A stretch of DNA of 64,000 nt, from the NCBI RefSeq assembly GCF_000424325.1, contig NZ_AUJR01000007.1:1-64000 (forward strand). Direction: 5' to 3'. The notes under the pieces were generated by a model. The model was not told the DNA's origin and did not search any database. It was given only the letters and a program-made list of their open reading frames with translations. The DNA is from [Clostridium] clostridioforme AGR2157 (lineage in GTDB: Bacteria; Bacillota; Clostridia; Lachnospirales; Lachnospiraceae). Each line of letters begins with the position of its first letter. The stretch's first letter is position 1. Of the stretch, positions 26,717 to 49,653 are shown one piece after another. A program made the translations under genes and the position numbers.

Positions 26717-26745
26717 GATTTCCATGATGAAGCGGGAAAAGTTTT

Positions 26746-26854: not shown

Positions 26855-26883
26855 TTTACTTCCATTATTGGGTATACTATAAT
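26855..26883 (+). promoter_or_regulatory. SigA-type promoter of the recombinase gene
   Basis: TTTACT (26855-26860), 17-bp spacer, TATAAT (26878-26883), 51 bases ahead of the start codon. It lies outside the invertible segment, so it would work in both orientations. Confidence 0.65.
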
Positions 26884-26934
26884 AAAAAGATAACCTAATA
26901 ACAAAGCTGATCACAGTACGAGGAGGAAAACAAC

Positions 26935-27807
26935 ATGGAAGATCAGAAACTGGAACAGTTTGCCGCTTGGCTGCGTGACAGGGAGCGCAGTAAGAATACG
27001 GTGGAAAAATACGTAAGAGACGCCAGACGTTTCCTTGAATTTGCGGGAACAGATAACTGGGGACGGGAACAGGTGCTTCTGTACAAGGGCTATCTGCAGA
27101 AAGAATATAAGATTACCAGCGTCAATTCCATGCTGGTAGCTTTAAACAGCTATCTGCTTTTTATTGGCAGGCCGGAGTGCTCCGTGAATATTTGCCGGGT
27201 GCAGAGATGCCTTTTTCGGGATGAATCCCGGGAACTTTCCTATCGGGATTATAAAAACCTGGTGAGAGCGGCCAATATGCAGAAAAAAATACAGCTGAGC
27301 TGTATACTGCAGACCATTGCTTCCACAGGAATCCGGGTCAGTGAACTGAAATATATCACCGTGGAAGCCTTGAAAGGCCAAATGGTGGAAATCGACTGTA
27401 AGGGAAAATACCGGTTTATCCCATTGCCTGCTGCCCTTGTGATTGTACTGAAAGACTATTGCCGCAAGAAAAAAATCAAAAAGGGCTGCATTTTTGTTAC
27501 AGACAAGGGAGAGCCGATGGACAGGAGAAATATCTGGGCAGGGATGAAAGAATTATGCGGTGCGGCCCAGGTAGCGGAAACAAAGGTATTTCCTCATAAT
27601 CTGCGTCACCTGTTTGCGCGCTGTTACTACGAGCAGAAAAAAGATCTGGTCCGGCTGGCTGATTTCCTGGGACACAGCAGTGTGGAAACAACCAGGCGTT
27701 ATACCATGGTCAGCAGCAAAGAGGCCTACCAGAAGCAATTGGAACTGGGACTTGTGCTTGATGATAAGAGTGAAAACCCTCAAGAAAAAATCAGCATTAT
27801 GACATAA
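26935..27807 (+). CDS. tyrosine site-specific recombinase, probable flagellar-switch invertase
   Basis: A 290-residue tyrosine recombinase. An N-terminal SAM-like DNA-binding domain (to about 95) is followed by the catalytic domain with all key residues: Arg134 (TGIRVSEL), Lys158 (CKGKYRFIPL), His221 and Arg224 (FPHNLRH), His247 (LGHSS) and Tyr256 (TTRRYTM). Members of this size that are not phage integrases often invert promoters. The last codons (ATG ACA TAA) lie within the left inverted site at 27797-27824, and the right site lies 340 bp on, immediately upstream of the flgB operon. I infer that it inverts this segment. GAGGAGG precedes the ATG. Because both sites share GACATAAT, inversion would leave its stop codon unchanged. 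Confidence 0.9.
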   Translation: MEDQKLEQFAAWLRDRERSKNTVEKYVRDARRFLEFAGTDNWGREQVLLYKGYLQKEYKITSVNSMLVALNSYLLFIGRPECSVNICRVQRCLFRDESRELSYRDYKNLVRAANMQKKIQLSCILQTIASTGIRVSELKYITVEALKGQMVEIDCKGKYRFIPLPAALVIVLKDYCRKKKIKKGCIFVTDKGEPMDRRNIWAGMKELCGAAQVAETKVFPHNLRHLFARCYYEQKKDLVRLADFLGHSSVETTRRYTMVSSKEAYQKQLELGLVLDDKSENPQEKISIMT

Positions 27808-27824
27808 TGTGGATTATGTCTTAA
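27797..27824. repeat. left inverted recombination site
   Basis: The core GACATAAT-GTGG-ATTATGTC (27801-27820) is flanked by TTAT and TTAA. It can be read as two 11-bp arms (TTATGACATAA and TTATGTCTTAA) around a 6-bp centre TGTGGA, the layout of Xer-like recombinase sites. The core is the exact reverse complement of the right site's core. Confidence 0.9.
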
Positions 27825-27919
27825 AAAAACAAGATAGAAAAACTACATACTGTAATTAATGTTTCAAATTATGCAGACAACAGAACAACTCATACATCCA
27901 GTGGCTTCTGCCACATCTT

Positions 27920-27945
27920 AAAGTATGGGAATCCCCATACTTTTT
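27920..27945 (+). terminator. terminator inside the invertible segment
   Basis: A perfect 10-bp stem, AAAGTATGGG (27920-27929) with CCCATACTTT (27934-27943), with a TTTTT run at its end and T8 at 27952-27959. It works as a terminator only when read on the plus strand as given. Confidence 0.8.
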
Positions 27946-28083
27946 CCTCGGTTTTTTTTAGTTGCTGCTGTGTTTTTTACAGCACGATTTTATTTGGTTC
28001 CATGAGACGGCACGGTGCAACTGATACCATGATATGACAATTATCTTAAGATTGCAACCCAAAATTTTCAAAATCCCTAAAAT

Positions 28084-28156
28084 TTGTTAAAAGTAATAAA
28101 ATAATAATAATTTATGCATAGAAATTCGACAGGAAATTATTTAATCCGGCTATAGT
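28084..28156 (+). promoter_or_regulatory. candidate promoters in the invertible segment, pointing to flgB
   Basis: Two weak SigA-like pairs: TTGTTA (28084-28089) with TAATTT (28108-28113, spacer 18), and TCGACA (28126-28131) with TATAGT (28151-28156, spacer 19). Neither is a strong match, so the start point needs mapping. Confidence 0.35.
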
Positions 28157-28184
28157 TTATGACATAATCCACATTATGTCGTAA
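28157..28184. repeat. right inverted recombination site
   Basis: The core GACATAAT-CCAC-ATTATGTC (28161-28180) is flanked by TTAT and GTAA. The asymmetric centre CCAC is the complement of GTGG at the left site, which sets the two sites in inverted orientation. Confidence 0.9.
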
Positions 28185-28394
28185 CTAAGGTGGATTTTTT
28201 ATTGAGGCTTAAAATATTGATTGTGAAAAATGCGCATACCAGGTGCTTATATAAATATATTTTTTTGTACGGTTTTACGATAGACATCAGTCAGTACTTT
28301 TTAAAATGAGATTGTTAATGGCGGTTTCATAACCATAAGGCCTGATTGTTGCTATATATAAATGTCGAAATTTGAAATATAAAGGAGTGGTAAT
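28185..28394 (+). other. leader region between the switch and flgB
   Basis: 210 bases, AT-rich, with no gene. It would be the fixed part of the flgB mRNA leader if transcription starts in the invertible segment. I looked for a c-di-GMP riboswitch and did not recognise one. A weak SigA-like pair (TTGTTA 28312-28317, ATAAGG 28335-28340) could give switch-independent transcription. Confidence 0.4.
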
Positions 28395-28790
28395 GTGTCG
28401 GGAATGTATGGAAATGGAATAGGGCTTACAGAAAAGGTTCTGGACTATTTATGGGGGAGACAGAACATAACTTTAAATAATATTGTCAATGTGGATACCC
28501 CTGGTTTTAAAGCCCAGTATGTAACGTTTGAGGAAGAATTGGCAAAGAAGATCCAAAATGCCGGCGGCGCAGACGGGAGGAAGACCCAAAGCGCAATAGC
28601 GGAAGCAATCAGGTCAAGCAGGGCAGGCCTGCTCACAACCTGGAATGAAGCTACCCGTCTGGACGGCAATAATGTGGACATGGATCAGGAGCAGGTGGAG
28701 CTTGTGCGCACGGCCTACGAGTATCAGCAGGCGGCGAATTCAATCAACAGTGAATTAAACCGTCTGCGCACTGCGGCCAAAACCTTTTAA
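28395..28790 (+). CDS. flgB: flagellar basal-body rod protein FlgB
   Basis: A 131-residue proximal rod subunit. The N-terminal rod motif ITLNNIVNVDTPGFKAQ and the C-terminal helix with DQEQVELVRTAYEYQQAANSINSELNRLR are both present. It starts with GTG at 28395, 4 bases after AAAGGAGTGG. It is the first gene of the long flagellar operon. Its usual partner flgC is not next to it but 12 kb downstream. Confidence 0.95.
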   Translation: MSGMYGNGIGLTEKVLDYLWGRQNITLNNIVNVDTPGFKAQYVTFEEELAKKIQNAGGADGRKTQSAIAEAIRSSRAGLLTTWNEATRLDGNNVDMDQEQVELVRTAYEYQQAANSINSELNRLRTAAKTF

Positions 28791-28833: not shown

Positions 28834-29163
28834 ATGGAATTATCAATGAAATTATCAGCAGAATTTATCAGGCCAATGGAGGAGTGGAATTCCGTGCCGG
28901 GTATAGGGTCTGCTGAAAACAAAGATGTTTTTGGGGAAAAGAAATCCCTTTTTCAGAACGTATTGGAAAACGCCGTGGAACAGGTGCGCATTACTCAGGA
29001 AGACGCGGAGAATAAAAAATATCTTTTGGCCACAGGGCAGTTGGACGATGTTCATTCCCTGCCTATTGCTGAGGCAAAAGCAGCCCTTTGCGTTGAGGTG
29101 CTGGTTGCTTTGAGGAATAAGGCAATGGAGTCTTATAACGAAATCATGAAAATGAGCGTATAG
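28834..29163 (+). CDS. fliE: hook-basal body complex protein FliE
   Basis: A 109-residue protein that joins the MS ring to the rod. The conserved part is FQNVLENAVEQVRITQEDAE, then LATGQLDDVHSLPIAEAKAALCVEVLVALRNKAMESYNEIMKM. It lies between flgB and fliF, as usual once flgC is left out. Confidence 0.9.
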   Translation: MELSMKLSAEFIRPMEEWNSVPGIGSAENKDVFGEKKSLFQNVLENAVEQVRITQEDAENKKYLLATGQLDDVHSLPIAEAKAALCVEVLVALRNKAMESYNEIMKMSV

Positions 29164-29197
29164 TTCAAACCAATAATGGCAGAAGGCTGGAAGGAAA

Positions 29198-30925
29198 ATG
29201 CACACTCTAAAGGAAAACTGGCAGAAATTGTCGGATAAATCAAAGAAAATGTTAATGACAATCACTGGAGTAACGGCAGTGGTTGTTGTTTTGGCGGTTA
29301 TAGCCCTTAAAATTGGCTGGCAGCCAGAATACAGCACCCTTTTTACAGGGCTGAATCAGGAGGAAGCCCAGGAGGTGGTGTCGCTTCTTCAAGAGGGAAA
29401 TGTTGACTATCGGTTTAATGATAAGGAGGGTGCAATCCAGGTCCCCAAGGAAAATGTGGACCAGACAAGAGCGAGACTTTTAAGCCAGGGGTATCCCAAG
29501 AGCGGGTTTACCTATGATATGTATCGTGATAACGCAGGCCTGATGACAACAGAATCAGATAAAAAGCAGTATACGCTTTATGACTTGCAGGACCGGCTGG
29601 GTGCCCAGATTCGTTTGTTTGAGGGAGTGAGGGATGCGAAGGTAACGATTGCAGAGGCAGGTGAGCAGAAATACGCTATTTCTGACCAGACCGGCACGGA
29701 CGCGTCTGCTTCCGTTGTGGTAACCATGGAGAGTGGAAAGGCCCTTACGCCGGATAAAGCGGCGGCCATAAAGAACCTGATCGCCCGCGCTGTAAAGGGG
29801 ATGAATTTTACCAGCGTCTCTGTTTTTGACGCGGAAACCATGATGGAGATCGGGGATAACAGCGCGGATGAAAGCGGCCTGGGCGGCGCAAAGGATTTGA
29901 CTGCCCTTACAAGCCTGATTGAAAACAATATCGGGGCAAATGTGCGGCGGGTACTGGAAAAGCTTTACGGCCAGGGAAATGTGGCTGTCTCAGTTAAGGG
30001 GACCCTGAACATGGAAAAACTGATCCAGGAAAATACACAGTATTCCACTCCGGATAAGATTGACGAGCAGGATAAAACCGGTCTGCTTCATAAAGAAGAT
30101 GTTGTAAATGAAAATTCACTGGCAGCAGATGTGTCTGCCGGCGGTGTGGCAGGCGCGGATGCCAATGCGGATACGCCCAGATATACAAATAATGATAATA
30201 CCCAGACTGTGGCGGACAACTATGCCAACAGCAGCGCCGCAAGGGAATGGCTGTATAACACAGTGAAGGAACAGCGCCAGGTAGAGCCGGGGGTGTTGGA
30301 AAATATCACGGTGGGCATTGTGATCAATACGGATGATATGTCTGTAAGCCGGAATGACCTTGTAAAGCTGGTTGCCAACTCCGCAGGCATTCCCCAGGAT
30401 GCGGCGGAGCAGAACATCGCAATCGTGCGTGCGGCAGCGCCCGGCGCGGGCCAGTCTCCTGGTGCAGAAGCCCGGCAGGTGAGCGCCCAGCCGGATCAGG
30501 CATTGAATCTTCCGCTGCCAGTGGTGATTGCAATTATTTCGGGCATAGTGCTGCTTGTGCTGCTGGTTCTTTTACTTATACTCCGCAGCAGGGGCAGGAA
30601 GAAGGCAAAAGCCGGGGATGCGGACATGGACGGGCTGTTCGACCTTGTGGAAAATACAGAGGAGGAGTTTGTGGCCGGAGAATCGCCCGGAATAGCTGAT
30701 GGGGCAGCTGCTGAAGCGGGGGTGGCCGCACAGGATGAGGAGATGCGCAGGAACGAAGAAATCATCAACCTTCGTATGCAGCATAGTATGAAGCTGAAAC
30801 AGAATATCGGCGATTTTGTGGAGCAAAATCCGCAGATTGCCGCAAAATTAGTGCAGAGTTGGCTGAGAGGAGAGGTCGAGGACATTGGCAGAAAAGGCAG
30901 TGATACAAGAAGAAAAGAAAAGTGA
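29198..30925 (+). CDS. fliF: flagellar MS-ring protein FliF
   Basis: A 575-residue membrane ring protein. Membrane helices lie near residues 22-40 and 433-460. The periplasmic-side ring-building motifs are present (YSTLFTGLNQEEAQEVVSLLQEGNVDYR, ARLLSQGYPKSGF, YDLQDRLGAQIRLFEGVRDAKVTIA). The cytoplasmic tail, including NPQIAAKLVQSWLRGE, binds FliG. Its last 41 bases overlap fliG in another frame, so the two ring partners are translationally coupled. Confidence 0.95.
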   Translation: MHTLKENWQKLSDKSKKMLMTITGVTAVVVVLAVIALKIGWQPEYSTLFTGLNQEEAQEVVSLLQEGNVDYRFNDKEGAIQVPKENVDQTRARLLSQGYPKSGFTYDMYRDNAGLMTTESDKKQYTLYDLQDRLGAQIRLFEGVRDAKVTIAEAGEQKYAISDQTGTDASASVVVTMESGKALTPDKAAAIKNLIARAVKGMNFTSVSVFDAETMMEIGDNSADESGLGGAKDLTALTSLIENNIGANVRRVLEKLYGQGNVAVSVKGTLNMEKLIQENTQYSTPDKIDEQDKTGLLHKEDVVNENSLAADVSAGGVAGADANADTPRYTNNDNTQTVADNYANSSAAREWLYNTVKEQRQVEPGVLENITVGIVINTDDMSVSRNDLVKLVANSAGIPQDAAEQNIAIVRAAAPGAGQSPGAEARQVSAQPDQALNLPLPVVIAIISGIVLLVLLVLLLILRSRGRKKAKAGDADMDGLFDLVENTEEEFVAGESPGIADGAAAEAGVAAQDEEMRRNEEIINLRMQHSMKLKQNIGDFVEQNPQIAAKLVQSWLRGEVEDIGRKGSDTRRKEK

Positions 30926-31937
30926 GACAGATATCATTACTGATACCAGGCAAAAAGCTGCCATTGTGGTCGTGTCCCTGGGAGCGGACCGGGCTTCGCA
31001 GATTTACAAGTATCTCAGCGAGCAGGATATTGAGGATCTGACCTATGAAGTGGCGAAGATGGGAAAAACTTCCAACAGTCAGGTGGAAAATTCCCTGGAT
31101 GAATTCTATAAACTGTGTCTGACACACAAGATGATGTCAGACGGAGGACTGGATTATGCCAGAAATGTACTTGAAAAGGCATTTGGAGAAACAGCAGCCA
31201 GAAGCCTTTTGGAAAAGGTTTCCAGAACCTTGCAGTCCAAACCCTTTAATTTCTTCATGAAAGGGGATCCGAAGGCGCTGCTGTCTTTGCTGCAGCATGA
31301 GCGTCCCCAGGTAATCGCCCTTATTATGGCTTATATGGATCCCAAGCAGGCTGCCCTGGTACTGGAGCAGCTTCCGGATAAAAAGCGGATCCCGATTTTG
31401 GAAAAAATGGCTAATATGGACAGGGTGTCCCCGGAGGCCATTGCCATTGTTGAGGAGGAGATGAAGCGTAAGTTTGCAACCATTATCACCAGCGAGGACA
31501 ATATGAACCTTGGCGGAATCGACTTTGTGGCAGATGTTATGAACAATGTGGACAGAAGCAGTGAAAGACGTATTTTTGATGAGATGGATAAACATAATCC
31601 TGATCTGTCACAGAATATCAGGTCCAGGATGTTTGTATTTGAAAACATTCTGGATATGGATGACCGGTCCATTCAGCGTTTTGTCCGTGACTGCGATACA
31701 AAGGATATCGTGTATGCCCTTAAGAGCGCCCCGGATGAGATGAAGCAGGTATTCTTTTCCAATATGTCCAAGCGTATGGCTGAAACTGTAAAGGGAGATT
31801 TGGAGGTTACCACCAATGTAAGGCTTAAGGATGTTGAGGAGGCGCAGCAGCGCATTGTCAATATTATCCGAAGTCTGGAAGAAGCAGGAGAGGTCATTAT
31901 AAAGAAGGGAGGAGAGGATGATAACATCATCGTTTAA
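30885..31937 (+). CDS. fliG: flagellar motor switch protein FliG
   Basis: A 350-residue rotor protein. The N-terminal domain binds FliF. The middle EHPQ-like motif is LQHERPQVIALIMAYM. The C-terminal torque domain includes LVRDCDTKD-type VRDCDTKDIVYALKSAPDEMKQVFFSNMSKR, with the charged helix that faces the stator. The start is TTG 30885, which follows AGAGGAGAGG; no ATG in frame is near the expected N-terminus. It overlaps fliF at its start and fliH at its end. Confidence 0.95.
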   Translation: MAEKAVIQEEKKSETDIITDTRQKAAIVVVSLGADRASQIYKYLSEQDIEDLTYEVAKMGKTSNSQVENSLDEFYKLCLTHKMMSDGGLDYARNVLEKAFGETAARSLLEKVSRTLQSKPFNFFMKGDPKALLSLLQHERPQVIALIMAYMDPKQAALVLEQLPDKKRIPILEKMANMDRVSPEAIAIVEEEMKRKFATIITSEDNMNLGGIDFVADVMNNVDRSSERRIFDEMDKHNPDLSQNIRSRMFVFENILDMDDRSIQRFVRDCDTKDIVYALKSAPDEMKQVFFSNMSKRMAETVKGDLEVTTNVRLKDVEEAQQRIVNIIRSLEEAGEVIIKKGGEDDNIIV

Positions 31938-32748
31938 AGGCATTGTAAAGCCGGGGGAGGCGAAGGTGGAAGCCTTTTCTTTTCCTGTCCAGCTGTCTTC
32001 TCCTGCAAAAAAATCAGTAAAGGAAAAGGGGCCAAAGGCAGAAGATGTACCTCTTCCCTGCCCGGAGTCGAGGGAGGAGGCGGATTACATGGCCCTTGGC
32101 GGGGCCGGAGGAATCATAGAGGGAGCAAAAGCGGACGCCCGGCAGATCATCATGGAAGCAAATGCACAGGCTGAAGATATCATTGCAAAAGCAAGGCAGA
32201 CCGCAGACCGGATAAAAAAGGAATCCGCCTCCCAGGGGCGGGAGGAGGGATACAGGGAGGGATATGAGCAGGGGCGGAAAGAGAGCATGGAAAAAAGCGG
32301 CAGGTTGCTGAGAGAGCAGCAGGACGTGTTTCGCAGCAGCCTGGAGACCGCCCTCAGCGCCATTGATGCTGCCAAGGAAAGAAGCATTGAAAAATACCTT
32401 GATGAATTAAAAGACTGCTCTCTTGCCGTGGCGGAAAAAGTGATTTGCGTCAGTCTTAAATCCAGCGGCCATATCATCAAGAGAATGCTTGTCTCAGAAA
32501 TAGAAAAACTGAAACGGACCGCATGGGTAAAGATATACATGGAGAAAAGCGATTACAACATGATGATGGAGGCGGACGCGGACGTTGTAAATGAATTGGC
32601 CAGGCTGTCGGACAATATCAAATTTATAGTCATGAATAAAGAAAGCAATGGAAGCTGCATCATTGAAATGCCGGAAGAAATCGTGGATATCAGTGTGGAT
32701 ACCCAGATGGATAATATAAGGGAATTGCTGGAAAATATCAAAGTTTAG
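31918..32748 (+). CDS. fliH: flagellar export stator protein FliH
   Basis: A 276-residue regulator of the export ATPase FliI. An Ala/Glu/Lys-rich coiled coil (GAKADARQIIMEANAQAEDIIAKARQTADRIKKE) is followed by a Gly-repeat segment (SQGREEGYREGYEQGRKE), typical of FliH, and a V-ATPase-E-like C-terminal domain. It overlaps fliG by 20 bases and ends 8 bases before fliI. Confidence 0.9.
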   Translation: MITSSFKGIVKPGEAKVEAFSFPVQLSSPAKKSVKEKGPKAEDVPLPCPESREEADYMALGGAGGIIEGAKADARQIIMEANAQAEDIIAKARQTADRIKKESASQGREEGYREGYEQGRKESMEKSGRLLREQQDVFRSSLETALSAIDAAKERSIEKYLDELKDCSLAVAEKVICVSLKSSGHIIKRMLVSEIEKLKRTAWVKIYMEKSDYNMMMEADADVVNELARLSDNIKFIVMNKESNGSCIIEMPEEIVDISVDTQMDNIRELLENIKV

Positions 32749-32756
32749 GAGCGCTT

Positions 32757-34058
32757 ATGTTTAAGAAAATCCCTCAGATGGTGGCCAAGGCGGAGGCTGT
32801 AAGCCACATTGGGAAAATTGAAAATGTGGTAGGGATGTCCATAGAAGCATCCGGCGGCCGGTCCGGCGTCGGAGATATTGTCATGATCTATAACGAAGAG
32901 CAGAACCGTCAGGTGCCGGCAGAAGTAGTGGGCTTTAAAGACGGGAAAGTCCAGCTTATGACCTATGAGCCCACCAGCGGGATAACCTCCGGAAGCTTTG
33001 TGCGCAACACAAGGCGCAGGCTTAAGGTGCCGGTGGGGAATTTCCTGCGGGGCAGGATCATCAATGCCCTGGGAGAACCCCTGGATGGAAAAGAGGAATT
33101 TCAGCCAACCCAGTTTTATACGGTTAACAGTTCCTATACAAATCCTTTAAGCCGGCCGCCGATCCGGGAACGCCTGGAGTTTGGAGTCAAGGCGATCGAT
33201 GGACTTAATACCATTGGGAAAGGCCAGAGAATAGGGATTTTTGCAGGCTCAGGCGTGGGAAAAAGCACTTTGATGGGAATGATCGCTAAAAACGTAAAGG
33301 CTGACATTAATGTGATCGCGCTGGTGGGAGAGCGGGGGCGGGAGGTCCTGGAGTTTGTGCAAAAGGACTTGGGAGAAGAGGGAATGAACCGGTCGGTTTT
33401 AGTGGTTGCGACATCGGACCAGCCCGCCATGCTCAGAATGAAATGCCCCTTGGTCGCCACTACAATAGCGGAGTATTTCAGGGACCGGGGAAATGACGTG
33501 CTTTTGATGATGGACTCCCTTACCCGCTATGCCATGGCCCAGCGGGAAGTTGGGCTTGCCATTGGAGAACCGCCTATTGCCAGGGGCTATACGCCCTCTA
33601 TCTATGCCGAGCTTCCAAAACTTTTGGAGCGGAGCGGGAATTTTAATCAGGGCTCCATAACAGGGGTATACACGGTGCTGGTGGAGGGCGATGATACAAA
33701 CGAACCGATTTCCGACACGGTCCGGGGGATTCTGGACGGCCATATCGTGCTCAGCCGGCAGCTTGCAAGTGAGAACCATTTTCCTGCCATTGACATTGGA
33801 GCCAGTATTTCAAGATTAATGGTAGAAGTAGTTTCAAAGGAACACAGGATTTTGGCCTCCCGTTTCCGGAATATGATGGGGCTGTATCAGAAAAACGCAG
33901 ATCTTATCTCAATCGGCGCATATAAAAAAGGGAGCAATGGAGCCTTAGACGAGGCGGTTTCTAAAATTGACCGCATGAACCAGTTCCTGGAGCAGGACAT
34001 TGATGAAAGCTTTGAATACCATGAGATATTGGCATTAATGAAAGAAATTACCGGCTAG
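32757..34058 (+). CDS. fliI: flagellum-specific ATPase FliI
   Basis: A 433-residue hexameric ATPase that feeds substrates to the type III export gate. Walker A is GSGVGKST (164-171), Walker B is VLLMMDSLTRYA, and the family signature PSIYAELPKLLERSG follows. Length and motifs are normal. Confidence 0.95.
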   Translation: MFKKIPQMVAKAEAVSHIGKIENVVGMSIEASGGRSGVGDIVMIYNEEQNRQVPAEVVGFKDGKVQLMTYEPTSGITSGSFVRNTRRRLKVPVGNFLRGRIINALGEPLDGKEEFQPTQFYTVNSSYTNPLSRPPIRERLEFGVKAIDGLNTIGKGQRIGIFAGSGVGKSTLMGMIAKNVKADINVIALVGERGREVLEFVQKDLGEEGMNRSVLVVATSDQPAMLRMKCPLVATTIAEYFRDRGNDVLLMMDSLTRYAMAQREVGLAIGEPPIARGYTPSIYAELPKLLERSGNFNQGSITGVYTVLVEGDDTNEPISDTVRGILDGHIVLSRQLASENHFPAIDIGASISRLMVEVVSKEHRILASRFRNMMGLYQKNADLISIGAYKKGSNGALDEAVSKIDRMNQFLEQDIDESFEYHEILALMKEITG

Positions 34059-34069
34059 GAGACAATACC

Positions 34070-34528
34070 ATGAAACAATTCCGGTTTGGCCTGGATACAG
34101 TCCTTGATTATAAAATGCAGACATTGGAACATTTAAAAACAGAACACGCTGCCATGAACAGAAAAGTCATCCGTCAGGAGGAAGAAGTGATCCGCGCCCA
34201 CAGCAGCCTGAGCGGTTATGAAGATGCATTTGACCGGACAAAGGGGGCAGGGGCCTTAATTGAACATTACCGCTTGTATGATATGTGCATTGAACGGATG
34301 GGAAAAATCCTGGAGGAAGAAGAGAGAAGGCTTGAGGATTTAAGGGAAAAGGAAGAATGCAAAAAAAAGGAGGTTGTGGCGGCTAAGATAGACACCTCCA
34401 AATTTGAGAAGCTGAAGGACAGGCGCCAGACCGCGTATAATAAAGAGCTGATGAGAGCGGAAGAACGGTTTTCCGAGGAATTTGTAATCCGGAGCGTGGT
34501 GCTAAACCGCAGCCAGCACCGGGGATAA
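34070..34528 (+). CDS. fliJ: flagellar export chaperone FliJ
   Basis: A 152-residue coiled-coil protein, highly charged, beginning FRFGLDTVLDYKMQTLEHLKTEHA as FliJ does. It is the central stalk of the FliI ring. Position directly after fliI supports the call. Confidence 0.85.
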   Translation: MKQFRFGLDTVLDYKMQTLEHLKTEHAAMNRKVIRQEEEVIRAHSSLSGYEDAFDRTKGAGALIEHYRLYDMCIERMGKILEEEERRLEDLREKEECKKKEVVAAKIDTSKFEKLKDRRQTAYNKELMRAEERFSEEFVIRSVVLNRSQHRG

Positions 34529-34587
34529 GGCTGATAATTGCAGCAACTGCTGTTGATTATAAAAATAATAATGAGGAGGAAACGCTT

Positions 34588-35781
34588 ATGGCCAATGTTG
34601 AGATGGTGCGGATGATAAGGCAGGATAAGAAGCTGTCCAATCCATCAAAACCATCCGGAAAGAAAAATGCGGATTTTTCCCACATGCTCAGCGCAAAGGC
34701 TGCGGATGTGAGGGATGCCGGATCGCCGCGGCCGGATGGGAAAGTCCGGGAAAAGGAGGACGGCGGGAAAACAAAACCAAAGGAGGGGCCGGACGCTGAT
34801 GATTTCCAGACACTGAAACTGCACCATGATTTTGCGGCAAGGTTTGAATGGGGTATGAGCCAGCCTGTTTTGGTGTGTGAAGAGCTGCTTTTGGAACAGG
34901 GCGAAGCAGTCCTGGATCTGGAATCTGTGAAGGCGCGGCAAAGCGGGATGGCGGAAGGAGAAAAAACGGCCAGGATATTTGCAGAAAGCCGGACAACCCC
35001 GGAGGAAGCTGCCGTCCATGGGAAAATGCTTCAGGCGGAACAGGAAATAAAGGAGTCAAAGACAATGGCTGATATGGGACTTCCCATGGATGGGACAAAA
35101 AAACTCCAAAAGGCCGGAGCAGGGCAGGATTCCAATGTTCTGCGGCAGGAAAAGGCCAGGGATTTGCAGGAAGGCATCAAACCACAGGCTGATGAACCGT
35201 CCCGCCAGGCAGGTGGAAAAATAACTGAGATTGCCTCGAAAAAGGAAGAAGCAGGCCGGCCGGGGCAGGCGAGCCTGGGAAGGGAGAATGAAGCGCCGGA
35301 ACAAGCGCATTTTGCATCCGCGGCAAAAGGCAGTAAAGGGGCGGAGGGCGCCGTACATCAGGCGGCCGGACATGTTGAGACAGTCAGAACGACCCGGCAG
35401 GAACTTCCGGCAGATGTTGGAAAAACCATTGCCAACAGGATGCCGCAGAGAAATGGGGAAATGACCATTGAACTGGAACCGGCGAGCCTTGGCAGAATTA
35501 TTGTCCGTGTGACCTACGACGCAGGCAGGGCATCGGTGGCGCTTATGTCCGCTAATCCCAGAACTCTTGAAATCCTGAGCCGGGATGCGGGCAGCATTGC
35601 AGGGATGATTGAGGAAAAAACCGGCCAGGAGACAGTTGTTTACATACCGCAGCAGGAAGCCTATCCTGAGGATTCCGGAAGGAAACGCGGGTCAGAGGGC
35701 CGGGAACAAAAACAGCAAAATGACAGAAAAAAACAGCAGTCTGAGTCTTTTATACAGCAGGTCAGGCTGGGGCTGGTCTGA
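34588..35781 (+). CDS. fliK: flagellar hook-length control protein FliK
   Basis: A 397-residue secreted ruler protein. The first 290 residues are low-complexity, Lys/Glu/Ala/Gln-rich and poorly conserved, as usual in FliK. The C-terminal hook domain (about 290-350) reads RNGEMTIELEPASLGRIIVRVTYDAGRASVALMSANPRTLEIL, which triggers the export switch in FlhB. GAGGAGG precedes the ATG. It is followed after 12 bases by flgD. Confidence 0.9.
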   Translation: MANVEMVRMIRQDKKLSNPSKPSGKKNADFSHMLSAKAADVRDAGSPRPDGKVREKEDGGKTKPKEGPDADDFQTLKLHHDFAARFEWGMSQPVLVCEELLLEQGEAVLDLESVKARQSGMAEGEKTARIFAESRTTPEEAAVHGKMLQAEQEIKESKTMADMGLPMDGTKKLQKAGAGQDSNVLRQEKARDLQEGIKPQADEPSRQAGGKITEIASKKEEAGRPGQASLGRENEAPEQAHFASAAKGSKGAEGAVHQAAGHVETVRTTRQELPADVGKTIANRMPQRNGEMTIELEPASLGRIIVRVTYDAGRASVALMSANPRTLEILSRDAGSIAGMIEEKTGQETVVYIPQQEAYPEDSGRKRGSEGREQKQQNDRKKQQSESFIQQVRLGLV

Positions 35782-35793
35782 TAAGGAGGAAAA

Positions 35794-36306
35794 ATGGCTG
35801 ATAGTTTAGGAGTAAGCGGCACAAATAACCCATACATAACACAATACTATACAGCATCTTCCAATGAGAAGAATACGCTGACAATCGAAAGCTACTTCAA
35901 GCTGCTGGCTGCGCAGCTTAAGAATCAGGATATGACAAATCCCATGAGCAACAGCGAGATGATGGCGCAGATGACGCAGATGGCAATGGTCCAGTCTCTG
36001 GGCACAATGACAGACGCTGTAAATAATTCTATGAACATTACGACACAGACCTACGCAGCCGGGCTGGTGGGACAGGAAATCACAGTTGCCGTGACAAAAG
36101 AAAATGAATATGGACAGCCGGTGCCCGTGGATGTGAAATATGGAATTGTTGAGTCCGTGAGCTTAGTGGGAGGAAACCCCACCATCAGGCTTGCGGATGA
36201 CGGCACAGATTATTCTCTTTCCTATATAGTGGGAATGGGAAAGATTGATAATCCCTTTGGAGGAACAGATAAGGGAGAGGAAGAGAAGGTTCAGTTTCTT
36301 GTGTAG
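35794..36306 (+). CDS. flgD: flagellar hook capping protein FlgD
   Basis: A 170-residue hook cap. The conserved N-terminal part is LTIESYFKLLAAQLKNQDMTNPMSNSEMMAQMTQMAMVQSLGTM. A short C-terminal beta-rich segment follows; the Fn3-like cap domain of enteric FlgD is mostly missing, which is common in Firmicutes. AAGGAGG precedes the start. Confidence 0.9.
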   Translation: MADSLGVSGTNNPYITQYYTASSNEKNTLTIESYFKLLAAQLKNQDMTNPMSNSEMMAQMTQMAMVQSLGTMTDAVNNSMNITTQTYAAGLVGQEITVAVTKENEYGQPVPVDVKYGIVESVSLVGGNPTIRLADDGTDYSLSYIVGMGKIDNPFGGTDKGEEEKVQFLV

Positions 36307-36320
36307 AGGAAAAAGAAAAT

Positions 36321-36599
36321 ATGGAGATAAAAGCAGTAGAAGGCCTGAACTTTTCCAAACATGCCGCAAAGCGGAGTATAGAGCGGGGGATTACAACAGA
36401 CGGACAGTTTAAGAATGTTCTGGAACATGCGGTAGAGGAGGCCCGGAAAAAGGGGGCTAAGGATTTGGCGGTTATTGGAAGCCAGGCGGTTTTTGTTGTA
36501 AATGTACCTAATAATGTAGTAGTTACAGTCATGTCCAAAGAGGATATGAAGGACAGGATTTTTACAAATATTGACAGTGCTGTTCTCATTTCAAAATAG
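36321..36599 (+). CDS. small flagellar operon protein (TIGR02530-like)
   Basis: A 92-residue protein between flgD and flgE. The pattern LNFSKHAAKRSIERGI, VEEARKKGAKDLAVIGSQAVFVVNVPNNVVVTVMSKEDMKDRIFTNIDSAVLI matches a small family that is confined to this place in flagellar operons of Firmicutes and some others. Its role is not established; a function in hook assembly is likely from position. Confidence 0.85.
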   Translation: MEIKAVEGLNFSKHAAKRSIERGITTDGQFKNVLEHAVEEARKKGAKDLAVIGSQAVFVVNVPNNVVVTVMSKEDMKDRIFTNIDSAVLISK

Positions 36600-36670
36600 G
36601 CAGGACCGAAAGGATGCCTGGCGAAGTGCCGGAAGTGCAACAGTAGAGACAGCGGAAAGGGAGATAAAAA

Positions 36671-37612
36671 ATGTTAAGAGCAATGGATTCAGCAGTATCA
36701 GGGCTGCGGGCACATCAGAACAAACTGGATGTAATCGGACACAACATTGCCAATGTTAACACCTTTGGGTTTAAGGCTCAGAGCTACAGTTTTAAGGAGG
36801 CCATGTATCAGACAGCCACCCAGTCAACGGGCGGAGTTCAGAATGATGACACGACGGCGGCCGGTACAAACGGAGCCCAGTATGGATACGGAAGTATGAT
36901 GGGCTCCATCAGTACGGATATGCTTTCCTCCACACCTACCTATGTGGGAGGCCTGAACGCATGTATTAATGGACAGGGTTTTTTTGCAACCCAGGCCATA
37001 TCAACAAAAGAGATTGAGGTGGGCGGGGATGCCGCTGAGGTGACAGATGCATTAAAGGAAGCGGAATTTGCCTATACCCGTGTGGGGCAGTTTCAGCTTG
37101 ACAGTCAGGGATACCTTACCGACGGAACGAATTTTATATACGGATTCCGCCCGGATGGCAATAAGGGGTTTGAGACAGACAATTTAGTGGCGCTCAGGGT
37201 CCCCTCTGATTTGAACAATGGGTTTGATGATGACGCGCTTCAGGCTGCCAGTGTGAAGATCAATGAACTGGGAGAGGTTACAGCCACTGTTACGAACCCC
37301 GACAATGGCGAGAGCGTCCAGGTATCTTTGGGGAAGATAGCCATTGTAACCTTTCAAAATCAGGAAGGCCTTATGAAAAGCGGGGGAAGCTATTACTCCG
37401 CAAGCATTGGCGATAATACGGGCTTTTGTTCCGCAACCATTCCAGGCGGTTCCACATCCAAATTGATGACCGGTTACCTGGAGGCATCCAACGTGGATCT
37501 GGCAAAGGAGTTTTCAGAAATGATCACGACACAGAGGGGATTCCAGGCAAATACTAAGATGATTACTGTCAGCGATGAGATATTATCAGACCTGATCAGT
37601 ATGAAACGATAA
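36671..37612 (+). CDS. flgE: flagellar hook protein FlgE
   Basis: A 313-residue hook subunit. The N-terminal motif is MLRAMDSAVSGLRAHQNKLDVIGHNIANVNTFGFKAQ, the middle has FTRVGQF-like FAYTRVGQFQLDSQGYLTDG, and the C-terminus is NVDLAKEFSEMITTQRGFQANTKMITVSDEIL. It is shorter than enteric FlgE, mostly by loss of the outer domain. GGGAG precedes the ATG. Confidence 0.95.
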   Translation: MLRAMDSAVSGLRAHQNKLDVIGHNIANVNTFGFKAQSYSFKEAMYQTATQSTGGVQNDDTTAAGTNGAQYGYGSMMGSISTDMLSSTPTYVGGLNACINGQGFFATQAISTKEIEVGGDAAEVTDALKEAEFAYTRVGQFQLDSQGYLTDGTNFIYGFRPDGNKGFETDNLVALRVPSDLNNGFDDDALQAASVKINELGEVTATVTNPDNGESVQVSLGKIAIVTFQNQEGLMKSGGSYYSASIGDNTGFCSATIPGGSTSKLMTGYLEASNVDLAKEFSEMITTQRGFQANTKMITVSDEILSDLISMKR

Positions 37613-37676
37613 TAAATTCTCTTCCCGGGGCTGTCTGACGGCGGCCCCGGGAGGATAAGGGCGAAAAGAGAATATT

Positions 37677-37871
37677 ATGATTACAGTAATCCGTTTGAAT
37701 GGTGAGGCACTTTTACTTAATTTCTTCCAGATTGAATCCGTGGAAATGATACCTGAGACAAAAATTAAGATGATGAATGGGACATTTTATCTTGTAAAAG
37801 ACAGCGCAGAATCCATTACCCAACAGGTAAAAGAAGTTATGAGGGATTGCTGCCTTCATCTATTGCATTGA
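37677..37871 (+). CDS. flbD: FlbD/SwrD family protein
   Basis: A 64-residue protein, MITVIRLNGEALLLNFFQIESVEMIPETKIKMMNGTFYLV, matching the FlbD family found between flgE and motA or fliL. In Bacillus subtilis the homologue SwrD raises motor power through the stators. It lies 18 bases ahead of motA here. Confidence 0.85.
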   Translation: MITVIRLNGEALLLNFFQIESVEMIPETKIKMMNGTFYLVKDSAESITQQVKEVMRDCCLHLLH

Positions 37872-37889
37872 TACAGGGGGCATTTTCGT

Positions 37890-38702
37890 ATGGATTTAAC
37901 AACATTAATAGGAATCGTATGCGGTATTTTTCTGGTTATCAACGGAATTGGACTGGATAAAATTGGAAATTTTGTGGATATACCCAGTATCCTGATTGTG
38001 GTGGGAGGCACCCTTGCCGCCACCATTGCCAGCTATCCCTTATCCATCCTGCTGGATATACCAAAACATATTTTAATATTGTTCCGGGGAAAAAAATATA
38101 ATATTCCGGCACTGGTGGAGCAGATGGTGGATCTGGCCATGGTGGCGCGGCAGAATGGCCTGCTGGCTTTGGAGGAAAAGGCAGAGGAGATTAAGGACCC
38201 GTTCTTTAAACAGAGTGTGCTGATGATCGTTGATGCCAATGATCCGGACAAGGTCCGGTTTGTGCTGGAGCGGGAACTGGAAAACATGATGGTCCGCCAT
38301 GACGCGGCGGCGGGGCTGTATGAAAAGGCGTCTGCCTATGCTCCGGCTTTTGGAATGGTGGGTACGCTGGTTGGACTGATCAACATGCTGAAAGGCCTTA
38401 ATCTGGATGGCGGCGGAGGAGCTTCCAATCTGGGGCAGGATATGTCGGTAGCTCTTATTACTACCTTTTACGGAAGCTTTCTCTCCAATCTGTTTTTCCA
38501 TCCAATTGCTAAAAAACTGCGTATCCGCAATGATGAAGAGGAGCTTTACTGTTCCACCATTATTGAGGGGATTATTGCCATACAGGCAGGGGAAAATCCA
38601 AAATATCTGCGGGAGCACCTTCTGGCTTCCACGAAACAATCCGTTCAGCGTAAGCTGCTGGCAAAAGCAGAAAAGGCCCCCAATCCAGAGGCAGGTGAGT
38701 AG
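37890..38702 (+). CDS. motA: flagellar motor stator protein MotA
   Basis: A 270-residue membrane protein with four predicted helices. It has the conserved VGGTLAATIASYP, PAFGMVGTLVGLINMLKGL (the proline that works in torque) and ISVALITTFYGSFLSNLFFHPIAKKL-type motif. With MotB it forms the ion-driven stator. It is followed by motB after 2 bases. Confidence 0.95.
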   Translation: MDLTTLIGIVCGIFLVINGIGLDKIGNFVDIPSILIVVGGTLAATIASYPLSILLDIPKHILILFRGKKYNIPALVEQMVDLAMVARQNGLLALEEKAEEIKDPFFKQSVLMIVDANDPDKVRFVLERELENMMVRHDAAAGLYEKASAYAPAFGMVGTLVGLINMLKGLNLDGGGGASNLGQDMSVALITTFYGSFLSNLFFHPIAKKLRIRNDEEELYCSTIIEGIIAIQAGENPKYLREHLLASTKQSVQRKLLAKAEKAPNPEAGE

Positions 38703-38704
38703 CA

Positions 38705-39628
38705 ATGAAGAAAAAGAAAGGGAACCGTCCCACAGACGGGGGCGGAAACTGGATGGATACATACGGCGACATGGTTACCCTGCTGTTGACATTTTTTATC
38801 ATGCTCTATTCTATGTCCAGTTTAAGCGAACAGAAATGGGAAATCTTTGTCCGCAGTATATATCCTGAGGATTTGAAGGAAGCCCAGGAACAGATTGATG
38901 TTGGCGGAATCATTGACCCGGATGCAGCGGTAGAGGGAATGAAGCCGGACGAACTCACCACAGATGACGCGGAAGATTTGAATAAGCTTTATCTGACCAT
39001 TGCCCAGCGAATGAATGAGAATGGGGCTGAGGGCGTGACAATTTCAAGAGGAGACGGATACACATACGTAAGCTTTAACGACAATGTGTTCTTTAACGGC
39101 AATGAGTCTGCTATAACGGAATCCGGCCAAAGGATTCTGGCTGCCTTTTGCTCGGCAATCAGCCCGGTGAGTGATAAGCTGTCCCAGATTAATATTATGG
39201 CCCATACGGCCCAGGGGGACCCCAGACGGCTTAACAATCCGCGTGTAGACCGCATGCTGTCAGCCATGCGGGGGGCGGAGGTGTGCACTTTTATACAGGA
39301 AAAGAATGTGATCGGACCGGATAAATTAATCAATATCAGCTATGGACAGTTCAGGCCGGTGGCTTCCAATGACACCTCGGAGGGAAGGGCAAAAAACCGC
39401 AGGGTTGAGATGCTGCTGATTGATGAGGGCACGGCTGAACGTTCCATAAGCGAATATATTGAAGAATATAACAGTGAAAAAAATACAGACAAGACCGTTG
39501 TGACAGGCAGTCAGAACGGGAACGCTGACTCTGGTTTTACACAGACACAGCCCTCGCCTGAGAATATAGCCAGCACAATGCCGCCCTCAGGCACAGAGGC
39601 TTTTGCAGGCGGAGAGACATCAGAATAA
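38705..39628 (+). CDS. motB: flagellar motor stator protein MotB
   Basis: A 307-residue protein with one N-terminal membrane helix (WMDTYGDMVTLLLTFFIMLYSMSSL) carrying the ion-binding Asp22. Residues about 90-245 are an OmpA-like peptidoglycan-binding domain (DNVFFNGNESAITESGQRILAAF, INIMAHTAQGD, LSAMRGAEVCTFI, EGRAKNRRVEMLL). The last 60 residues are a polar tail. Confidence 0.95.
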   Translation: MKKKKGNRPTDGGGNWMDTYGDMVTLLLTFFIMLYSMSSLSEQKWEIFVRSIYPEDLKEAQEQIDVGGIIDPDAAVEGMKPDELTTDDAEDLNKLYLTIAQRMNENGAEGVTISRGDGYTYVSFNDNVFFNGNESAITESGQRILAAFCSAISPVSDKLSQINIMAHTAQGDPRRLNNPRVDRMLSAMRGAEVCTFIQEKNVIGPDKLINISYGQFRPVASNDTSEGRAKNRRVEMLLIDEGTAERSISEYIEEYNSEKNTDKTVVTGSQNGNADSGFTQTQPSPENIASTMPPSGTEAFAGGETSE

Positions 39629-39650
39629 AAGAGTAAAGGTGGTTTCAGCA

Positions 39651-40709
39651 ATGGCAGATGTACTATCCCAAAGCCAGATAGATGCGCTTCTTAAGTCAAT
39701 GCAGAGCGATGGTCCTGAAAAGATGGAGCAGTCAGTTGAGAAGAAGCCGGAGGCCGAAGAGACAAAGTACAGTAAATATGATTTCTACAGTCCAAGAAAG
39801 TTTACAAAGGACAAAATAAAAATACTGAACAGCGTCTTTGAAAATTATGCCCGTATTTTGACTTCTCAGGTAAACGGAATATTCAGGGTTCTTACAGACA
39901 TAACCGTGATGGAAGTGCAGGAGCGCAGATACTATGAGTTCGTCAATTCACTTCATGAAAATGACAGTATTACATTGGCGGATGTTGAGATTTCTGACAA
40001 GGGAAAGAATAATGTTCCGCTCATGGTGTATGTTACTCCCGGATTGATCATCACACTGATCAACCACATGCTGGGCGGCGGAGATGAAATCGTGAAGCTG
40101 GAGGAAAATTACCATTATTCTGATGTGGAAGTGGCATTATACCGGAGAGTGGTGAAGTATTTTGTGCAGGCGCTAAAAGACGGTTTTTCCAATTATATCA
40201 ATGCCGGTTTTGAGGTACAAAGAATTGAAGAAAACCCAAGCATGGTCCAGGAAATCGGTCTTGACGAGACAGTGGCGATCATACTTCTCAATGTGGATGT
40301 GGCAGGCATGGCGGTAGAAAAGATAAAAATATGCATTCCAGGCACGCTGCTGGAGTACATGTTCCATCTGATCGACAGCCGCAAGCATATTGCCAGAGGC
40401 TATTCCTATGAGGACAACAGAGAAGTGATCATGGATAACCTGCGCTATACGGCTCTTCCTGTAACAGGACAGCTGGGCACCGTGGAACTGGAGCTGGAGA
40501 CCCTTTATAACCTGAAGGTGGGGGATGTCATTTCCATGAATAAACCCAAGGATGGAAATGTAAAGATTTTTGTGGGCCGCCAGCCCTGGTTTACCGGAAA
40601 GATGGGGGCCTATAAGAAGAACATAGCTGTCTGCATTGAAAAACAGATTTATGAGGAAGCTGAAAACGGAGAAAGTGAAGGGCATCTTAGGCAGGAAAAT
40701 ACAAATTAA
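39651..40709 (+). CDS. fliM: flagellar motor switch protein FliM
   Basis: A 352-residue C-ring protein. The N-terminal CheY-binding peptide is LSQSQIDALL (about 5-14). The middle CheC-like domain lacks phosphatase residues. The C-terminal SpoA domain ends with VGDVISMNKPKDGNVKIFVGRQPWFTGKMG. I set the start at ATG 39651, which follows AAAGGTGG and gives the CheY peptide at the very N-terminus. It starts 22 bases after motB. Confidence 0.95.
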   Translation: MADVLSQSQIDALLKSMQSDGPEKMEQSVEKKPEAEETKYSKYDFYSPRKFTKDKIKILNSVFENYARILTSQVNGIFRVLTDITVMEVQERRYYEFVNSLHENDSITLADVEISDKGKNNVPLMVYVTPGLIITLINHMLGGGDEIVKLEENYHYSDVEVALYRRVVKYFVQALKDGFSNYINAGFEVQRIEENPSMVQEIGLDETVAIILLNVDVAGMAVEKIKICIPGTLLEYMFHLIDSRKHIARGYSYEDNREVIMDNLRYTALPVTGQLGTVELELETLYNLKVGDVISMNKPKDGNVKIFVGRQPWFTGKMGAYKKNIAVCIEKQIYEEAENGESEGHLRQENTN

Positions 40710-40724
40710 AGCGAGGATAAGAAG

Positions 40725-41087
40725 ATGGAAAAAATTATGTTGGTAGATGATGCTGCGTTTATGCGGATGATGATAAAAAATGCTTTAACAAAGAGCGGTT
40801 ACAGTAATTTTGTCGAGGCGCAGGACGGGGCGGAGGCAGTGAAAAAGTATGAGGAGGAAAAGCCGGATCTGGTTATCATGGACATTACCATGCCCAATAT
40901 GGATGGCCTTCAGGCCCTAAAGAAAATCAAGGAAGGTGATTCGTCCGCAAAAGTAGTTATGTGTACCGCAATGGGACAGGAAAGTATGGTGGTGGATGCC
41001 ATAAAATCCGGGGCAAAGGATTTTATTGTAAAGCCGTTTAATGCGGACAGGATTGTCCAGACAGTAAATTCCATTTTTGGAAAATAG
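40725..41087 (+). CDS. cheY: chemotaxis response regulator CheY
   Basis: A 120-residue single receiver domain. Acidic pocket Asp8/Asp9, phospho-acceptor Asp53 (LVIMDITMPNMDG), Thr in MCTAMGQ and Lys in FIVKPF are all present. It binds FliM when phosphorylated. It sits between fliM and flgC, away from the cheA operon. Confidence 0.95.
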   Translation: MEKIMLVDDAAFMRMMIKNALTKSGYSNFVEAQDGAEAVKKYEEEKPDLVIMDITMPNMDGLQALKKIKEGDSSAKVVMCTAMGQESMVVDAIKSGAKDFIVKPFNADRIVQTVNSIFGK

Positions 41088-41099
41088 GGAGGGATACAG

Positions 41100-41549
41100 A
41101 TGGCGTTTTTAAGCTCTTTTGATATTGCCGCCTCCGGTATGAGCGCTCAGAGACTCCGGATGGATATCGCAGCGGAAAATATAGCTAATACTGACACCAC
41201 GCGGACAGAGGCAGGAGGGCCTTACAGAAGAAAGGATGTGCTGTTTGAGAGCTACGGGGCCGGTTCCTTCCGGGAGGCTTTGCGCAATGCTTCCCTGGGA
41301 AAGGGATTTTTAAGCAGGAATGCGGGGGTGAGGGTGGCAGGTATTATTGAGGATGACAGGGAACTGAAGCGGGTCTACAATCCGGGACACCCGGATGCCG
41401 ACGCACAGGGATATGTGAATTATCCAAATGTGGATTTACTAAAGGAAACAGTAGACAGCATGTCGGCCACCAGATCCTATGAGGCAAATGTGACGGCATT
41501 AAATGCAATGAAGGTTATGGCTCAGAAAGCGCTGGATATAGGGAAATAG
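41100..41549 (+). CDS. flgC: flagellar basal-body rod protein FlgC, displaced
   Basis: A 149-residue rod protein: FDIAASGMSAQRLRMDIAAENIANTDTTRTEAGGPYRRKDVLFE and YVNYPNVDLLKETVDSMSATRSYEANVTALNAMKVMAQKALDIG. The motifs are complete. In most bacteria it follows flgB directly; here it lies between cheY and fliY. Confidence 0.95.
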   Translation: MAFLSSFDIAASGMSAQRLRMDIAAENIANTDTTRTEAGGPYRRKDVLFESYGAGSFREALRNASLGKGFLSRNAGVRVAGIIEDDRELKRVYNPGHPDADAQGYVNYPNVDLLKETVDSMSATRSYEANVTALNAMKVMAQKALDIGK

Positions 41550-41589
41550 AGGTACGGTAAGAAAATGAAAGAGCAAAAGGAGACAAACA

Positions 41590-42804: not shown

Positions 42805-42806
42805 TT

Positions 42807-43112
42807 ATGATGGGATTTTTTTCATTATTCAGCGCCATATTTATAGTGTGTCTTGTGCTGCTGCTGGCCTGGTGGTTCAGCCGGCAGCTGGGCAGCCGTT
42901 ATATGAAAGCGTCTTCAGATCAAAACATAAGGATTCTTGAACAAATACGTCTGGGGACAGACCAGCGTCTTCTGCTTATGAAGATGAGGGAGAGAGTGTT
43001 TCTGATCGGAGTCAGCCAGGCAGGGATTCAGATGCTGGCTGAACTGGGAGAGGATTTTAAAGGAGAATATGAGGCCCGTATAGGAAAGGAACAGGAGGAA
43101 GAAAATGAATGA
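42807..43112 (+). CDS. fliO: flagellar export protein FliO
   Basis: A 101-residue protein with one membrane helix (SLFSAIFIVCLVLLLAWWFSRQLG) and a short cytoplasmic domain, ILEQIRLGTDQRLLLMKMRERVFLIGVSQAGIQMLAEL, typical of FliO/FliZ. It helps FliP assemble. The stop overlaps fliP by 8 bases. Confidence 0.85.
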   Translation: MMGFFSLFSAIFIVCLVLLLAWWFSRQLGSRYMKASSDQNIRILEQIRLGTDQRLLLMKMRERVFLIGVSQAGIQMLAELGEDFKGEYEARIGKEQEEENE

Positions 43113-43761: not shown

Positions 43762-43783
43762 GCAGGCCGGATGGGAGGTAATT

Positions 43784-44047
43784 ATGAGCAACGTCCAGGT
43801 ATTGGATGTGATGTACCAGGCATTACAGCTGATGATGAGGCTGTCGCTGCCCTTTTTGATCATCAGCATGGCAGTTGGCGTGCTTGTTGCCATTTTTCAG
43901 GCAGCAACGCAGATTAATGAACAGACGATTACGTTTGTTCCAAAGTTACTGGCTATTTTAGGGCTTCTTGGAGTACTGGGCAGTTCCATGCTGGTAATGC
44001 TTCAGGATTTTGTCAGGATGATTTTTGAAATAATAGCCGGAGGATGA
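43784..44047 (+). CDS. fliQ: flagellar export gate protein FliQ
   Basis: An 87-residue protein with two membrane helices and the motif ISMAVGVLVAIFQAATQINEQTITFVPKLLAI. It is part of the FliPQR export gate. Confidence 0.95.
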   Translation: MSNVQVLDVMYQALQLMMRLSLPFLIISMAVGVLVAIFQAATQINEQTITFVPKLLAILGLLGVLGSSMLVMLQDFVRMIFEIIAGG

Positions 44048-44053
44048 TAAGGG

Positions 44054-44806: not shown

Positions 44807-44832
44807 TTGCACGGAGAAGGGAGTGGTGAGGG

Positions 44833-45906: not shown

Positions 45907-45927
45907 AACCAGGATGGAGTTAGTTTC

Positions 45928-48051: not shown

Positions 48052-48071
48052 TGATAGCGAAGGTGGTTAAG

Positions 48072-48839: not shown

Positions 48840-48861
48840 TAAAAAGGAGGATGAAGCAAAA

Positions 48862-49641: not shown

Positions 49642-49653
49642 GGAGGAAGGGAT

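Follow-up and report, generated by a model that had tools for sequence, protein, structure and literature searches.

The DNA directly upstream of flgB in [Clostridium] clostridioforme AGR2157 is probably a self-contained inversion switch, whose orientation would gate the flagellar operon through directional elements carried in the invertible segment. At the level of the sequence, the anatomy of the locus, the opposite orientation of the segment in a relative (locus L107) and the family-wide coupling of recombinase and sites are established. The window referred to below is the whole stretch of 64,000 nucleotides analysed, and its features are collected in Table 1.

If orientation gates flgB, a DNA flip would decide whether these gut bacteria are motile and display flagellin, and consequently genome content alone would not predict swimming cells or flagellin-specific immune recognition. 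Lachnospiraceae flagellins are important to immunity. Both flagellar inversion switching and the recombinase-linked invertons of Clostridia are already known, and it is their combination at flgB that is new: among the literature matches listed, none reports a flagellar inverton from Enterocloster or any other member of Lachnospiraceae, and a prior mention is possible.

Recombinase, sites and segment upstream of flgB

The sequence-only reading of this DNA had described two 20-bp sites as exact reverse complements of each other, and both positions and sequence match on re-check. Each site is made up of 8-bp dyad arms flanking an asymmetric 4-bp centre (GTGG or CCAC), within an extended inverted repeat of 29 nt with 93% complementarity (27797-27825 / 28156-28184). 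When up to three mismatches are allowed, the pattern GACATAATNNNNATTATGTC has four matches in the window (shuffled sequences: mean 0.41, largest 2), of which only these two sites are exact. Exact copies are likewise found in only two places of the window's own genome, both at the flgB switch, and in 24 places distributed over eight of 17 same-genus genomes (own included), the reversed control pattern giving 0. The enclosed 340 bp are gene-free, as had been claimed, the longest ORF starting with ATG, GTG or TTG having 37 aa. An outer imperfect inverted repeat (80%; 27775-27799 / 28186-28210) surrounds both sites, partly within the last codons of the recombinase gene, and perhaps provides accessory binding sites.

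The residues R-K-H-R-H-Y are the catalytic signature of tyrosine recombinases. In the protein encoded beside the switch, the set R134-K158-H221-R224-H247-Y256 was located by alignment to XerD and to an archaeal XerC/XerA-like protein; with all six residues aligned and a Phage_integrase fold, it is a tyrosine recombinase, complete and ending in the left site, as the first reading held. None of the NCBIfam models scored above its cut-off with this protein. The stop codon TAA (27805-27807) lies inside the left site, and it had been argued that it survives inversion because both sites share sequence. This argument is unnecessary, since the stop sits in the outer half-site, which in the usual chemistry of tyrosine-recombinase inversion stays in place. 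In L107, a one-base shift leads to a TGA stop at the edge of the same site. The putative recombinase promoter is present as the same element in L107; its matrix score alone proves nothing, because a site on the - strand inside the recombinase gene scores 11.4. Three paralogs (40-47% identity) are encoded in the same genome, and homologs with 40-63% identity occur in the same genus and family, and one in another family of the order.

The gene for which the switch was said to lie directly upstream is indeed flgB, its TIGR01396 match exceeding the cut-off and its start lying 214 bp after the right site. It opens a + strand run that includes genes for FliE, FliF, FliG, FliH, FliI, FlgD, MotA/B, FliP, FlhB, FlhA and FlgE/F/G-type proteins, as well as a FliA/WhiG-type sigma factor. 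As far as gene content is concerned, the basal-body genes and FliA do lie downstream of the switch. Between flgB and fliE (28790-28834 of the window) there is no ORF for flgC.

Table 1. Features of the flgB switch in the window and related elements in other loci
Feature	Position	Strand	Basis or remark
Putative recombinase promoter TTTACT-17-TATAAT	26855..26883	+	matrix scan only, score 10.4
Tyrosine recombinase, 290 aa	26935..27807	+	Pfam PF00589 7.6e-25; sequence similarity to PDB 4a8e and XerD 1a0p
Left recombination site GACATAAT-GTGG-ATTATGTC	27801..27820	+	direct sequence comparison and pattern scans
Invertible segment, 340 bp	27821..28160	none	reversed in the relative L107
Hairpin GTGGC-TTCT-GCCAC	27901..27914	+	fold analysis
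10-bp hairpin, terminator-like mainly in + direction	27920..27945	+	fold analysis; direction by eye
Second terminator-like hairpin, T-rich tail	27966..27994	+	segment scan and fold analysis
Candidate promoter TTGCAA-17-TATCAT (9/12)	28029..28057	-	score within shuffle range
Opposing weak candidate promoter TTGTTA-16-AATAAT (9/12)	28084..28111	+	scan
Right recombination site GACATAAT-CCAC-ATTATGTC	28161..28180	+	exact reverse complement of left site
Fixed block in flgB leader	28281..28359	+	79 bp identical in L107
flgB, first gene of flagellar run	28395..28790	+	TIGR01396 92.4 bits, cut-off 59.05
Downstream flagellar genes	28834..50433	+	profile searches of selected ORFs
FliA/WhiG-type sigma factor	48048..48836	+	profile searches
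Unlinked site pairs (other loci)	L131 7567-7777; L132 6656-6885; L133 2512-2730		same type as linked cassettes
Poly-G/C runs before flgB (other loci)	L093 11831-11843 (G005); L135 1028-1039 (G009); L139 3289-3299 (G010); L067 ~244 nt before flgB (G029)

Opposite orientations in related genomes

The L107 locus, found by scanning a collection of species genomes, belongs to a metagenome-assembled genome (MAG) labelled Enterocloster bolteae, of a genus that belongs to Lachnospiraceae, and its recombinase is 96% identical to that of the window. The flanks on the two sides of the switch are 94.6% and 94.9% identical. L107 keeps the two sites, with unchanged centres, and the segment that they enclose aligns to the opposite strand of the window (90% over 330 bp), with the breakpoints of the change in orientation falling at the sites. 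These opposite orientations between identical sites agree with the earlier claim that the segment is invertible. For the flgB switch, the reverse orientation was seen in this one genome pair, in which L107 is a MAG of a related lineage and not the same strain. The flagellar switch of C. difficile was first recognised from the same kind of evidence, as described among strains of one ribotype (PMC5386303).

Beyond flgB, homologous cassettes of the family described below have oppositely oriented segments in 10 of 21 pairs, that of the window and L107 included. Moreover, both phases of one cassette seem to be present in the fragmented assembly G002, because contigs C181 and C299 meet at one switch, where 107 bp at the end of one are identical, in reverse, to the end of the other (L134 4324-4430, L089 116-222), C299 carrying recombinase, left site and segment, and C181 an operon-side gene, a site and the oppositely oriented segment. 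The two contigs share the centre GTAT and, overlapping as they do, look like one locus.

Short palindromes also occur as terminators, and the sites could in principle be ordinary repeats, or an artefact of assembly, with no function in recombination. Such an explanation is extremely improbable in view of the 24 sites found against 0 for the reversed control, of the coupling of recombinase and sites throughout the family, and of the true reversal in L107 with its breakpoints at the sites; furthermore, repeats of 20-29 bp are shorter than a sequencing read.

A family of recombinase-plus-inverton cassettes

The 53 homologs examined, the window and L107 among them, have 38% identity or more and are those in the retrieved stretches, a subset of the homologs across 98 genomes. 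Near the 3' end of the recombinase gene, 46 of them carry an inverted repeat. Once L041, whose repeat is not a site, and L097, whose repeat lies at an assembly gap, are dropped, family-type dyad sites are found in 44 of the 53, L045 having half of the left site. Among the seven homologs devoid of an inverted repeat (L091, L043, L093, L142, L149, L046 and L047) are some at a contig end, some that are fragments and some with a single site. No site pair was found near the 3' end in 16 lower matches from nine loci (26-33% identical, with one fragment at 38%); in L033, a repeat of 15 nt lies 0.9 kb upstream. The window switch has the dyad-symmetric inverted site pair at the recombinase 3' end that defines a linked cassette, and both orientations, as read from one genome pair, would also place it in the family. 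The switch had been called self-contained; this holds in that the recombinase is adjacent, but the arrangement is not special to flagella, being shared by the whole cassette family.

A 17-member clade around the window protein (support 100/100) has GACATAAT arms or small variants of them, such as GGCATAAT, wherever a site is seen, and the arms in other recombinase clades are ACATAAT, ACCACAGAAT or of the TACAACA type. For 35 of the 42 other segments, scanned inside only, the best promoter scores at least 10 and has its -10 box 45-90 nt from the end that it faces (shuffles: mean 1.6, sd 1.0, largest of 60 = 4); this count excludes L041, L097, the window and L107, its criterion was set after a first look at the promoter data, and segments that are homologous do not count as independent. 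Strong promoters in the other cassettes number 38, of which 11 face the operon and 27 the recombinase. The genes downstream, judging from their proteins, resemble capsule operons, large secreted surface proteins, signal-peptidase/TasA-like sets and glycosyltransferases. A recurrent first gene, encoding a Cys-rich protein of ~170-255 aa that begins MxxDLTGxxFGRLTV..., follows many GACATAAT sites (L012, L038, L039, L040, L042, L044, L048, L088, L090, L131, L132 and L134).

Linkage of recombinase and sites is not a rule, because the 6-14 kb retrieved for each of three site pairs with the same arms contain no recombinase. These are the pair of G016:C36, which is perfect, and those of G008:C49 and G003:C175, each with a degenerate partner. 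The first two are followed by a Cys-rich first gene of the kind found after linked cassettes. These unlinked pairs may be decaying or served in trans; in G008 (L132) there is no close recombinase among the matches listed, the best having an E value of 8.6e-33.

The 4-bp centres of the cassettes sampled, which are not every cassette of each genome, all differ in 13 of the 14 genomes with at least two called cassettes, G015 repeating AATC; in L045 and L150 the script read the centre off-register. In loxP, spacers that differ hinder exchange. By analogy, different centres would hinder exchange between switches, and the compact unit of an enzyme and two sites, with variants differing mainly in four central bases, offers a test case for how cross-talk between switches is avoided. 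It is tentatively proposed, as a possibility that we regard as doubtful, that the family largely consists of one enzyme per switch, with shared 8-bp arms and a private 4-bp centre serving as address for independent flips, and that one such module was captured by the flagellar master operon and rebuilt from an invertible promoter into a larger, hairpin-bearing gate, convergent with that of C. difficile. The differing centres favour a private address, and the three site pairs lacking a linked recombinase speak against one enzyme per switch.

Similar arrangements have been described in other bacteria. The 2025 survey of hCom2, a defined gut community, reports an inverton group of Clostridia (group 139; 32 of 33 from Clostridia) with a tyrosine recombinase (invertase group 35) nearby, beside the invertons as in the cassettes here (PMC11892184). 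In Clostridium sp. D5, the 26-nt arms of group 139 lie ~205 nt apart by the printed coordinates, like those of many cassettes here (PMC11892184). Group 139 may be the present family, to which it is likened by description; flagell, motility and flgB do not occur in the main text of that paper (PMC11892184). The tyrosine-type DNA invertases PsrA of Streptococcus and Mpi of Bacteroides fragilis, the latter likened by description, belong to the enzyme class of the recombinase; over 89% of its length, the recombinase has 31% identity to a plasmid record annotated psrA. Mpi alone, however, serves 13 or more scattered switches (PMC5386303), whereas most switches examined here have their own enzyme. 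The cassettes may travel between genomes, because two large records of a plasmid collection (OY725846.1 and OY725857.1, Subdoligranulum variabile) carry recombinase homologs with 47% identity. An origin from phage was also considered and discarded: viral contigs contain no match to the exact left-site pattern, and no relative was found in them by the search patterns applied, which are sensitive to close relatives only.

Among 30 flgB loci (own plus 29 relatives, six of the 30 having under 1.45 kb of upstream sequence), such a recombinase lies upstream only in the window and in G005, and a site pair only in the window. Five of the seven same-genus genomes with the same flgB type (own included) have no upstream recombinase. 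In G005, a recombinase 52% identical to that of the window is accompanied by a single site, GGCATAAT-ATAC-ATTATGCC. The two enzymes are not sisters in the tree (long branch, weak support); an independent capture at flgB in G005 was discarded, as a single flgB-linked clade is not rejected against the tree (p-AU 0.165 on 20 rows). The lone site in G005 and the five same-genus loci that have neither recombinase nor sites would suit a switch that has become locked or is in decay, with one or more inversions since the common ancestor and little or no activity at present. This is nevertheless unlikely, given the perfect sites in both the window and L107 and an intact recombinase with all its catalytic residues.

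Segment orientation and the transcription of flgB

In the mechanism proposed, the dedicated tyrosine recombinase would bind the dyad-symmetric site pair found at the 3' end of its own gene, and strand exchange around the 4-bp centre, where we infer the cut within each site, would invert the 340-bp segment. The adjacent recombinase is probably the enzyme that flips it. The directional signals which the segment would carry are the terminator-like hairpins and the candidate promoter TTGCAA-17-TATCAT. Folding of 27890-27990 is far stronger than that of shuffled sequences (z -6.3 on the + strand and -4.3 on the - strand). If the last three A-U pairs of the 10-bp hairpin are counted as tail, the hairpin is followed by five U when read in the + direction, as compared with three in the - direction. 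The candidate promoter, both hexamers of which are identical in L107, points to the recombinase in the window and to flgB in L107; it lies 232 nt from the segment end that it faces, with a score of 10.4 against a mean of 8.9 (sd 2.2) in shuffles.

In the window orientation, transcription reading through from the recombinase would run into the hairpins, and the conserved candidate promoter would be directed away from flgB, for which reasons the operon is predicted to be insulated (OFF). With hairpins and candidate promoter reversed, as in L107, the promoter would point towards flgB and the operon is predicted to be transcribed (ON); in this phase the FliA-type sigma factor would be transcribed with the operon and the late genes would follow. 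The chances that the window is OFF and L107 ON are about even. The opposing candidate, TTGTTA-16-AATAAT, lies at the position typical of the family (73 nt from the segment end); as oriented in the window it faces flgB, and on that reading the window would be in the ON phase. It was not found in the L107 segment, which has further candidates with 8-9 of 12 matches in both directions.

Segment orientation is likely to control flgB expression. Against gating speaks that no promoter of the strength usual in the cassette family was found in the flgB segment: the family's 45-90 nt position is occupied by weak candidates only (8-9 of 12), a promoter matrix derived from the family finds nothing above shuffles in the 340 bp, and the promoter-like sites number 5 against 3.8 expected by chance. 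The main argument against an all-or-none switch is the fixed block in the flgB leader. Its 79 bp are 100% identical in L107, as compared with 94% and 92% in neighbouring coding genes and 70-95% per 20 bp in the leader before the block, and TAGACA-15-TAAAAT can be read in it by eye, so that it is a possible fixed promoter or regulatory site. Hence the segment might invert while a fixed promoter in this block accounts for most of the flgB transcription, the switch only adding or removing read-through or tuning expression. The identity of the block, the readable promoter and the weakness of those in the segment would all fit. However, a spacing of 15 nt is poor for sigma-A, the conservation may reflect another element, and a strong promoter is found inside the segment in most other cassettes, which leaves this arrangement possible but not favoured. 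The RNA of 28281-28394 has no significant fold (z -1.7). An attenuator formed by pairing of AATCCAC with GTGGATT across the right site was considered as well, and is unsupported, since the site hairpin wins in the fold.

The closest parallel to the gating switch proposed here is Cdi4 of Clostridioides difficile, a short segment that is bounded by inverted repeats, lies upstream of flgB, is inverted by the tyrosine recombinase RecV and occurs in both orientations among genomes (PMC5386303, PMC5903667). The two systems share these elements and differ in their sequences: Cdi4 has 154 bp and 21-bp repeats, AAGTT(A/G)CTAT(A/T)TTACAAAAAA, as compared with 340 bp and GACATAAT-nnnn-ATTATGTC in the window, whose repeats, compared by eye with those printed for Cdi4, do not have the Cdi4 sequence (PMC5386303). 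RecV, moreover, acts on other switches too, whereas the window has an adjacent recombinase and exact sites that are unique in the genome. The C. difficile segment is described as part of a 5' UTR behind a fixed sigma-A promoter, having no functional promoter inside and acting through Rho (PMC7446863). By a comparable post-initiation mechanism, transcription in the window would start at the recombinase promoter and segment orientation would decide on intrinsic or Rho-dependent termination. The putative recombinase promoter, the asymmetric terminator-like hairpins and the C. difficile precedent would be consistent with it; on the other hand, related cassettes look like invertible promoters and no Rfam family matches 26700-28700 at E values up to 1, which points to no known riboswitch such as that of C. 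difficile, and we consider this mechanism rather unlikely. Finally, Hin of Salmonella resembles the window switch in that the inversion adjoins flagellar genes and the recombinase is linked. Hin, however, is a serine recombinase, and the Salmonella switch changes the type of flagellin and does not gate the basal body operon.

Tracts of another kind were also observed before flgB. Runs of 10-13 G or C lie ~165-375 nt upstream of flgB in 4 of 29 relatives (Table 1), and slipped-strand phase variation of flgB is possible in relatives devoid of the inversion switch. In 662 kb of loci of at least 5 kb, which overlap in part, 13 poly-G/C runs of at least 9 were counted, three of them before flgB. 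The window itself has a run of 12 G at 15890-15901, inside the ORF 14896-16773, where it separates a part that by eye looks pyruvyl-transferase-like from a second domain; it is possibly a slippage tract in a surface-polysaccharide gene cluster.
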